A stretch of 43,467 bases of DNA from Crocinitomicaceae bacterium (GTDB lineage Bacteria > Bacteroidota > Bacteroidia > Flavobacteriales_D > Crocinitomicaceae), in assembly GCA_022448165.1 (NCBI GenBank), contig JAKVAS010000010.1:1-43467 (forward strand), written 5' to 3'. Positions 41,842 to 43,467 of this stretch are shown piece after piece. Positions within the stretch are counted from its first letter, which is position 1; each line of letters begins with the position of its first letter. A program made the translations under genes and the position numbers. Below the pieces are notes generated by a model. That model ran no database searches. It was not told the DNA's origin and saw nothing but the letters and a program-made list of their open reading frames with translations.

Positions 41842-42075
41842 TTAACTCAACAAATCAATTCGGCTAATCCAATTCGAGTCCTTTTCAGTGAGACAATTAC
41901 TATCATGTGTCGTAATTTCCAATAATAGTTTGTTACAATCTGATACAATCATATTCGCATGATGATCTAACTCATCTGATGCCTTAGCTACTTTCAATAC
42001 AAACTCCGCTAGATCCGTTTGCGTTTTAAAAGAATACGAGCGTTGCATCGCTCCATCTATCTCTTCCCAATTCAT
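41842..42075 (-). CDS. phhB: Pterin-4a-carbinolamine dehydratase
   Basis: Regenerates the tetrahydropterin cofactor by dehydrating 4a-hydroxytetrahydropterin formed by phenylalanine hydroxylase. It is 77 aa, shorter than the usual 95-105, mainly at the N-terminus. The domain signature is visible: His38-His39 in ELDHHANM, then LLLEITTHDSNCLTEKD. The ATG overlaps the phhA stop in a four-base overlap (42072-42075), so translation is coupled. The pairing with phhA strongly supports the assignment. Confidence 0.93.
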   Translation of the reverse strand: MNWEEIDGAMQRSYSFKTQTDLAEFVLKVAKASDELDHHANMIVSDCNKLLLEITTHDSNCLTEKDSNWISRIDLLS

Positions 42076-42794
42076 ACTGTTTCTAATTTAGTCCATTTTT
42101 CAGTGAGTGTTTCAATCGACAAAAACAACTCATCAAAATTCTCAATAACGAAATATTTTGTTTGTACTTCATCATTCTTAAATGCCGTATTCAAGACTAT
42201 TTCAATGTCAAAATCAATTCTCTCGGCATCTCCAAACAAAGAAGAATTCGATTCTCCAAACGAAGAAGCTATTCCTGCCCCATAAATCTTCATTCCCGAT
42301 TCTTTTATTAATCCAAATTCAATTGTAAACCAGTACAAACGTTGCAACTGAATCAGTCGATGTTCATCATGAAGGAATAATTTTCCAAGTTCTCCAAAGG
42401 CTACCATAAATGCAGAGAAAACTGGATTTGAAAGCAAAGGAACATGTCCAAAAATATCATGAAACATATCAGGTTCCTCAAGATAATCTAATTGATCCAT
42501 TCTCCTTAGCCAAGTTGACGACGGAAATTTACGATCCGCAAGCAGACAAAAGAATTTATCAACCGAGATTAATCCTGGAACACATTCTATCTCCCAATTT
42601 GTATTCTCAACAAACCACTCATTAAGCTCAGTAAACTTAGGAACTTGATTCGAATTCAATACAGGTGCCATTGTTTCCAAGGCATCTAAATAAGCTTGGC
42701 ATGCTTTATCCTTTAGATTCTCTGCCTGACGCTCGAACAAAATATTCCAAACCTTGTGATCTTGTTCCGTGTACTTTTCAAATTGTTGTTTCAT
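42072..42794 (-). CDS. phhA: Phenylalanine 4-monooxygenase
   Basis: Pterin- and Fe(II)-dependent hydroxylase converting phenylalanine to tyrosine, cytoplasmic, 240 aa, the typical bacterial catalytic-domain length. The iron ligands are His112 and His117 (PDMFHDIFGHVPLL) and Glu159 (YWFTIEFGL). There is no N-terminal ACT domain, so feedback by Phe is not expected as in animals. The stop overlaps phhB. Immediately upstream is a perfect terminator and a Tyr-rich leader ORF, indicating attenuation control by tyrosine. Confidence 0.96.
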   Translation of the reverse strand: MKQQFEKYTEQDHKVWNILFERQAENLKDKACQAYLDALETMAPVLNSNQVPKFTELNEWFVENTNWEIECVPGLISVDKFFCLLADRKFPSSTWLRRMDQLDYLEEPDMFHDIFGHVPLLSNPVFSAFMVAFGELGKLFLHDEHRLIQLQRLYWFTIEFGLIKESGMKIYGAGIASSFGESNSSLFGDAERIDFDIEIVLNTAFKNDEVQTKYFVIENFDELFLSIETLTEKWTKLETV

Positions 42795-42802
42795 AATTGA
42801 TC

Positions 42803-42839
42803 AAAAAAAAAGCCCGATTCCAAAAATTGGAATCGGGCT
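42803..42839 (-). terminator. Attenuator terminator upstream of phhA
   Basis: Perfect 13-bp inverted repeat (42811-42823 with 42827-42839) with a three-base loop, followed on the minus strand by nine T residues (42811-42803). It lies nine bases before the phhA start codon and after the leader ORF, so it can only act to prevent transcription of phhA-phhB. Confidence 0.93.
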
Positions 42840-42864
42840 GCATATTTTATATTATCACAATAAA

Positions 42865-42927
42865 TTACACGTCGAGTCCAAAAATTTGGTTCGAATACGC
42901 ATAATAATATGTGTGCTGTTTCATCAT
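42865..42927 (-). CDS. phhA leader peptide, Tyr-rich
   Basis: A 20-codon ORF with two ATGs (42927 and 42924) and a TAA stop. The product begins Met-Met-Lys-Gln-His-Thr and continues Tyr-Tyr-Tyr-Ala-Tyr, with one Phe later. The four Tyr codons are all TAT. It lies between an exact promoter element and a terminator, directly upstream of the gene for a tyrosine-forming enzyme. This is the arrangement of an amino-acid leader peptide, so the peptide itself probably has no other function. Confidence 0.8.
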   Translation of the reverse strand: MMKQHTYYYAYSNQIFGLDV

Positions 42928-42933
42928 TTAGTT

Positions 42934-42941
42934 CAAATATA
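42934..42941 (-). promoter_or_regulatory. Bacteroidota -7 promoter element for the phhA leader
   Basis: The minus strand reads TATATTTG, an exact TAnnTTTG match. It ends six bases before the leader-peptide ATG, so the leader RNA would start at or just before its first codon. The element sits two bases after the aldehyde dehydrogenase stop codon. Confidence 0.65.
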
Positions 42942-42943
42942 AA

Positions 42944-43467
42944 CTAATATTTTACAAATACATTCTTTGCTTCCGTAAAAAATCGTAATGCCTCCCATCC
43001 ACCTTCTCTTCCAACACCTGATGCTTTAACACCTCCAAACGGTGTGCGAAGGTCCCTAACAAGCCACGAATTAATCCATACGATACCTGCATCTATAACA
43101 TCAGCCATCCTATGTGCTCGTTTGATATTAGACGTCCACAAAGTTGCACTTAATCCGTACTGTGTAGAATTTGCCATCATTAACACTTCTTCTTCTGTAT
43201 CAAATGGAGTTATTGTAACAACCGGTCCAAAAATTTCTTCTTGATTAGTTCTACAATCGTATGTAAGACCTTCAAAAACAGTTGGCGTTATGTAATAACC
43301 TTTATCATAGGGAGGCGCCAACTGAACTTGTTTACCCCCAACCAATAATGTTCCTCCTTCTTGTTTGGCTAATTCGATGTAAGCCAATACCTTTTCCATA
43401 TGAGGTCTTGAAACTAGTGCTCCTAAATTACTTTCAAGAGACTCTGGTGGTCCTACTTTTAATTGTT
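42944..43467 (-). CDS. Aldehyde dehydrogenase, 3' part (2-aminomuconate/2-hydroxymuconate semialdehyde type)
   Basis: Partial: the 5' end lies beyond the window and the frame is open to the last base. The visible 173 codons include GPPESLESNLGALVS, EEIFGPVVTITPF (the conserved C-terminal ALDH motif) and NSWLVRDLRTPFGGVKASG, then GREGGWEALRFFTEAKNV. The WLVRDLR and GREGGWEALRFFTE segments resemble 2-aminomuconate semialdehyde dehydrogenase of the kynurenine pathway and 2-hydroxymuconate semialdehyde dehydrogenases. It would oxidise the semialdehyde with NAD. The catalytic Cys lies outside the window, so the subgroup is provisional. The stop is TAG at 42944. Confidence 0.85.
   Translation of the reverse strand, partial: QLKVGPPESLESNLGALVSRPHMEKVLAYIELAKQEGGTLLVGGKQVQLAPPYDKGYYITPTVFEGLTYDCRTNQEEIFGPVVTITPFDTEEEVLMMANSTQYGLSATLWTSNIKRAHRMADVIDAGIVWINSWLVRDLRTPFGGVKASGVGREGGWEALRFFTEAKNVFVKY

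Follow-up and report, generated by a model that had tools for sequence, protein, structure and literature searches.

Among the closest described relatives of the RNA examined here is the pheA attenuator of Escherichia coli (pheL), in which an open reading frame (ORF) rich in one aromatic residue precedes a terminator ahead of the gene and control is exerted through charged tRNA, as summarized in PMC11802643. That leader carries Phe codons instead of Tyr codons, and the enzyme it controls belongs to the shikimate branch instead of being a hydroxylase. The aroR-aroF leader of Corynebacterium glutamicum similarly encodes Phe-Tyr-Phe and operates by ribosome stalling, but tyrosine availability is without effect according to PMC11802643, whereas the run in the phhA leader described below is composed of Tyr codons. 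Within the phylum of our source organism, “strong clues” of leader-peptide attenuation before amino-acid biosynthesis operons are reported for Flavobacterium psychrophilum in a study whose main text does not mention tyrosine or phenylalanine (PMC9723704). In Table 7 of PMC1173090, attenuation is predicted for several tyrA operons, including Bacteroides thetaiotaomicron pheA-hisHb-aroA-aroQ-tyrA, but the text around these predictions mentions neither a Tyr leader peptide nor a phhA attenuator. Our search of the open-access literature found no Tyr-specific leader attenuator and no phhA attenuator, in agreement with the original prediction for this locus, which knew of no tyrosine attenuator described on phhA. 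In design, the phhA leader would be a known type of attenuator with a new amino acid (Tyr) and a new target (phhA).

The leader is located on the minus strand of a 43,467-nucleotide stretch of DNA from a Crocinitomicaceae bacterium, which was analysed as a whole and which we call the window. It lies between an aldehyde dehydrogenase gene, which is on the same strand and has its stop at 42944, and phhA (Table 1). As in leaders of the trp/his/phe class, there is a short ORF with a run of codons for one amino acid, and a candidate terminator separates this ORF from the gene. Direct reading of the minus strand bore out the 20-codon Tyr leader, the 13-bp terminator with its nine U residues and the segment coordinates given by the original prediction. 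It also upheld the claim that the stretch containing segment 2 copies the 3′ arm of the terminator, in that the 12-mer at 42884-42873 matches 42826-42815 at 11 of 12 positions. Two details had to be amended. The gap from the T run to the phhA ATG is 8 nt rather than nine, and of the promoter only the -7 element is exact; upstream of it, the nearest TTTG occupies roughly positions -29 to -26 relative to the predicted start.

Table 1. Predicted features of the phhA leader and the genes it precedes; positions are those of the window.
Feature	Position	Strand	Basis
Promoter -7 box TATATTTG (TAnnTTTG)	42941-42934	-	read from sequence
Predicted transcription start	near 42929	-	box-to-start offset as given in PMC9723704
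Leader ORF MMKQHTYYYAYSNQIFGLDV, 20 codons	42927-42865	-	sequence; recurs 5′ of phhA in relatives
Putative regulatory Tyr codons TAT TAT TAT GCG TAT (Tyr at 42909-42901 and 42897-42895)	42909-42895	-	sequence, read directly, and conservation
Predicted protector hairpin, would hold segment 2 without ribosome	42913-42856	-	predicted fold
Segment 1 TCGAACCAA	42894-42886	-	fold and sequence
Segment 2 TTGGACTCG, putative antiterminator arm	42881-42873	-	duplex tests, stall geometry, fold
Segment 3 CGATTCCAA, portion of terminator 5′ arm pairing with segment 2	42835-42827	-	duplex test, fold
Predicted intrinsic terminator, perfect 13-bp stem with 3-nt loop (42839-42811) and nine T (42811-42803, counting the last stem base)	42839-42803	-	terminator scan, fold, stem covariation
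phhA, phenylalanine 4-monooxygenase	42794-42072 (ATG at 42794)	-	NF008877, PF00351
phhB-like pterin-4a-carbinolamine dehydratase, overlaps phhA	42075-41842	-	PF01329

In profile searches, phhA scores 258.8 bits with NF008877 (cut-off 247) and falls slightly below the TIGR01267 cut-off, and the phhB-like gene scores 49.5 bits with PF01329 (cut-off 26) and is under the NCBIfam cut-offs. The 139-nt leader RNA folds with a z score of -5.2, and none of 200 shuffled sequences folds equally well. When both strands of 42000-43467 were scanned for terminators, four sites were found against a shuffle mean of 0.7, two of the four being the phhA-leader stem read on either strand. Four Rfam matches at E values up to 1 (PyrG_leader, Trp_leader, Qrr and MESTIT1_3) were returned for the same interval, all below their gathering scores, with no T-box and no riboswitch. 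The match to Trp_leader (RF00513), a family that senses Trp, covers 42804-42886 with 22 bits, below the gathering score of 41. We also considered the Tyr-run motif TAYTAYTAYNNNTAY as a stand-alone signal and rejected it, since it is not rare in the genome and, with 21 matches, rarer than its own reversed control with 54. The weight of the case, as read from sequence, is in the arrangement of the parts and the conservation of this arrangement, and not in the Tyr-run motif alone.

We consider it highly probable, with a likelihood of roughly nine in ten, that this RNA is a ribosome-mediated transcription attenuator, responsive to charged tRNA-Tyr, for phhA and probably also phhB. Sequence and comparison show which parts are there, that they recur, that they can pair in alternative ways and how far apart they lie. 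From this we infer that the leader would be translated, that transcription would terminate ahead of phhA, and that the outcome would respond to tyrosine. Transcription would begin almost at the leader ATG, with the ribosome trailing the polymerase. When charged tRNA-Tyr is scarce, the ribosome would stall on the Tyr codons and open the protector hairpin, and the freed segment 2 would pair with the 5′ arm of the terminator before the 3′ arm exists, allowing transcription to continue into phhA. With ample tyrosine, the ribosome would reach the stop codon and cover segment 2, allowing the terminator to form. If no ribosome is present, the protector hairpin would hide most of segment 2 and the terminator would again be favoured.

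For comparison we assembled phhA relatives from the best 80 of at least 575 confirmed loci. To these we joined the relatives present in 52 of the 200 genomes of the family and in 69 of the 395 sampled across the phylum, along with further upstream stretches. The family is probably Crocinitomicaceae, as the upstreams of named loci L003 and L004 are identical to those of family genomes L084 and L085. Five upstreams with less than 200 nt and all duplicates with an identical last 100 nt were dropped, leaving 164 unique upstreams from 196. In 77 of the 164, a terminator ends no more than 130 nt before phhA. A Tyr leader was defined as an ATG-initiated ORF with at least three Tyr in five codons inside the 120 nt before the terminator. 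Such an ORF is found in 64 of the 77 terminator-bearing upstreams, whereas 100 rounds of shuffling average 0.96 and never exceed 3, with the caveat that the related sequences compared are statistically non-independent. The same test with other amino acids gives at most 6 of the 77 upstreams (Asn), followed by Leu and Arg with 4 each, and only 2 of the 87 phhA upstreams without a close terminator carry a Tyr ORF. Ten of the 13 terminator-bearing upstreams that fail are near misses (e.g. VINTNIYYYYYPLLNFRIG, GTG start), and three (L045, L136 and L197) hold no near miss. Shuffling preserved dinucleotides in the ORF, duplex and leader-fold tests, and base composition only in the nascent-chain and promoter/codon tests.

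When three Tyr in six codons within 420 nt are required, 39 of the 43 family phhA upstreams that could be used pass. The four failures comprise one with none (L090), two with two consecutive Tyr codons (L098 and L188) and one with a GTG start (L194). This count began with 45 places (30 loci and 15 fetched), two of which had insufficient upstream sequence. It left out places under about 200 bits, which are paralogues, fragments or decayed genes, and it included L192 despite the break that divides its gene into two pieces. Of the 69 phhA genomes sampled across the phylum, five pass, and all five are among the 17 from the class of the window, its own genome included; L115 passes solely with a GTG start. 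Some phhA leaders mix Tyr with His and are followed by a terminator (L078, L123, L124, L125 and L127, e.g. TYVHHSYHF and TYHSYSHYH; assigned by eye for L123-L125 and L127). Two loci carry decayed phhA genes with internal stops, of which L196 retains the Tyr leader MLLKTSTSYYYSSH and a terminator, and L197 retains a terminator-like stem only.

Homologous phhA leaders without Tyr codons, which the original prediction had named as evidence against itself, do occur in parts of the tree. First, no Tyr leader was found in any of the 52 phhA genomes from other classes of the phylum. Second, where phhA lies right behind hppD, the Tyr leader is present in none of five loci (L077, L081, L131, L132 and L134; hppD identified in L131 by TIGR01263 with 438 bits and in the other four by similarity), and L065, with hppD further upstream of phhA, has no Tyr leader either. 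Third, one paralogue type in one genus, that of genome G364, lacks it. In this genus, 32 of 41 genomes have a match, and 10 of those hold two copies within about 5 kb. By our own sorting, the copies nearer to the source PhhA have leaders such as RYYAYAYYA in 10 of 12 cases, whereas the other type, with 17 copies, shares a conserved ORF of its own in which no Tyr run occurs; here too there is a terminator, and segment 2 is similar. In these second-type copies (L136, L137, L235-L237, L244-L248, L250-L255 and L257) the ORF, such as MMNQTAKCFCLNIRPVVDGVGLYCRYGS, has a TAnnTTTG box just 5′ of it and a terminator after it.

Beyond the Tyr codons, the alignment of phhA upstreams that had been proposed as a check shows that the terminator and the 2:3 pairing also recur in relatives. 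We assessed pairing in 68 loci whose leader and terminator are 10-80 nt apart, a set that retains L036 and L106, where the script picked an ORF other than the evident leader; both are absent from the alignment used for covariation. The region from the last Tyr codon to 9 nt past the stop pairs with the terminator 5′ arm with a mean z score of -2.1 against its own shuffles, and the 2:3 duplex is at or under 5 of 100 shuffles in 44 of the 68 loci, the other 24 being individually non-significant. True 2:3 partners reach -11.15 kcal/mol, versus -8.64 (sd 0.19) kcal/mol for partners swapped between loci, and a control linker further downstream gives no excess pairing (z -0.05, 62 loci). The Tyr region and the post-stop region also pair in excess of shuffles (mean z -1.77; 31 of 68 loci). 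The distance from the last Tyr codon to the start of segment 2, with a median of 14 nt and quartiles of 13-16, fits a ribosome footprint, which agrees with the original proposal that Tyr codons and segments are placed for stall-dependent switching.

We then modelled the nascent chain, halted in the terminator loop, with the ribosome at the Tyr codons, absent, or at the stop codon. Across the 68 loci, the terminator 5′ arm is predicted to be paired upstream with a probability of 0.70 in the stalled state, 0.43 in the free state and 0.20 with the ribosome at the stop, and the corresponding values for the source-genome leader are 0.65, 0.16 and 0.01. The stalled value exceeds the stop value in 65 of 68 loci and the free value in 66. 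Since more RNA lies upstream in the stalled state, a shuffled linker makes for a fairer comparison; it gives 0.42 when stalled and is exceeded in 67 of 68 loci. In free leaders, 0.755 of segment 2 is predicted to be paired (fold mean z -2.55), mainly with the stretch directly after the Tyr codons (mean 0.52). The modelling thus points to a protector hairpin between segments 1 and 2 and to a stall geometry of the kind expected of an attenuator. At the source locus the terminator is the more stable predicted fold even with a stalled ribosome, and kinetics, or the order of synthesis, must therefore decide between them. In known attenuators it is the order of synthesis that decides the outcome.

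Compensatory changes are strong in the terminator stem and modest in the columns of the 2:3 helix. In the latter, of 300 swaps, 4 reach the observed score, 6 the observed paired count and 11 the observed double changes, and helices displaced by a single column show no fewer double changes (19 and 21 versus 18). Column covariation understates 2:3 pairing, however, since several alignment rows have segment 2 displaced by one base, and it is best read next to the duplex test above, which needs no alignment. Covariation is plain in one individual locus, that of Echinicola arenosa (L078): its segment 2 GGATTAGG pairs fully with arm CCTAATCC, and both depart from the consensus. Overall, the comparison supports an antiterminator that would exclude the terminator.

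The terminator stem itself also bears on the possibility that the leader acts not on termination but on phhA translation, by way of coupling or of how accessible the start is. Although phhA begins just past the T run and Bacteroidota initiate translation without relying on Shine-Dalgarno sites (PMC9723704), the stem and T run are conserved with compensatory changes, and 97% of the stem cells in the 47-sequence alignment are paired, a level reached by 0 of 300 swaps. We judge this alternative very unlikely. Slightly less probable still is an arrangement in which the nascent peptide would itself halt the ribosome, as a sensor of free tyrosine or of some other ligand. Regulators of this TnaC-like kind have a conserved peptide sequence at the stall site. 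The phhA leader peptides, compared by eye, appear to share little besides the Tyr run, and the neighbouring residues that do repeat (e.g. RIG or GTE) overlie segment 2. An arrest peptide would nevertheless be compatible with leaders that are short and begin almost at the 5′ end, and with the conserved ORF without a Tyr run in the second paralogue type. Least likely of all, and already contradicted by the comparative data, is the view that the terminator merely ends the transcript of the upstream aldehyde dehydrogenase gene and that the Tyr-rich ORF arose by chance in AT-rich DNA, for although that gene is in the right orientation and Tyr-run motifs are not rare genome-wide, Tyr ORFs far exceed the shuffled expectation (64 of 77 upstreams) and aldehyde dehydrogenase flanks just 11 of the 139 loci (database covering L001-L197), indicating that the leader travels with phhA.

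In 52 of the 68 loci a TAnnTTTG box occurs no more than 80 nt 5′ of the Tyr run (shuffle mean 3.3), and its position implies a transcription start 5 nt after the box, by the offset given in PMC9723704. Counted from this predicted start, the first in-frame start codon comes after 0-6 nt in 48 of the 51 loci and at -1, 10 and 11 in the others, L106 having no in-frame start codon, although choosing the first in-frame start at or near the predicted point biases these values toward short 5′ UTRs. For the source-genome leader the predicted 5′ UTR is 2 nt, and phhA leader mRNA is thus probably near-leaderless; the 5′ UTR of E. coli pheL is longer and includes a Shine-Dalgarno site. This property is not clearly special to phhA leaders. 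In pheA leaders the distance from box to ATG, measured by eye, is 19-28 nt in L212, L225 and L228, and 5-8 nt in L213 and L233.

The original prediction held that PhhA serves as a tyrosine source, and both gene content and published fitness data favour this role. The source genome, which is 86.5% complete, has pheA (prephenate dehydratase), and no prephenate or arogenate dehydrogenase (tyrA) was detected in it. At this completeness tyrA could be missed; yet a prephenate dehydrogenase scores over the cut-off in only 3 of 200 family genomes, with weak matches below the cut-off in 11 more. One of the three, G087, has phhA too. Prephenate dehydratase is over the cut-off in 27 of the 200 and hppD in 192, and the family appears to have widely lost aromatic synthesis and retained tyrosine breakdown. 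GapMind (PMC7311316) reports that phenylalanine hydroxylase (PAH) matters for the fitness of Echinicola vietnamensis in some defined media and proposes that the enzyme makes tyrosine there beside prephenate dehydrogenase; its congener E. arenosa has a Tyr leader before phhA. Two simpler accounts of the distribution were rejected. The leader does not mark only genomes lacking tyrA, which is over the cut-off in 54 of 68 phylum phhA genomes and coexists with a Tyr leader in G553 and G251, and missing tyrosine catabolism does not explain it, given the hppD count above, which is likewise over the cut-off.

The pheA gene of the source genome, which lies outside the window, also has an attenuator-like Phe/Tyr leader, MYRNNFTYYFFFGVSSHWNLLRI, with a terminator (L112 1339-1463, G000:C90). 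After this pheA comes a gene resembling DAHP synthase, whose 163.8 bits fall below the curated cut-offs. Aromatic-rich leaders, defined by at least five aromatic residues in seven codons, precede 15 of the 27 family pheA genes; L217 (FFYY) has four and is excluded. Tyr outnumbers Phe in 67 of 68 phhA leaders, and Phe outnumbers Tyr in 14 of 15 pheA leaders. The codons in these putative leaders thus follow the product of the controlled enzyme, with Tyr for phhA and Phe for pheA.

These observations raise the possibility, to which we give about even odds, of a two-level aromatic RNA circuit in bacteria that, like mammals, would make tyrosine only from phenylalanine. Ribosome stalling would operate at both levels, on Phe and Tyr codons in the pheA leader and on Tyr codons in the phhA leader, and the phhA transcript would be near-leaderless (predicted 5′ UTR 0-6 nt), with ribosomes loading at its very 5′ end without a Shine-Dalgarno site. 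The phhA leader would then be the first Tyr-specific attenuator of the trp/his/phe type. An attenuator of phhA would bring tyrosine into the set of amino acids sensed through leader peptides, and it would link phenylalanine hydroxylase, which is frequently treated as catabolic, with tyrosine synthesis in Bacteroidota. The predicted near-leaderless layout would make these bacteria useful for studying attenuation without Shine-Dalgarno initiation. The leader would also explain, at the level of regulation, what the Echinicola fitness data in PMC7311316 suggested, namely that PAH matters when tyrosine is missing. Finally, given the five hppD-adjacent phhA genes without it, the presence of the leader may allow biosynthetic and catabolic use of phhA to be told apart from the genome sequence.
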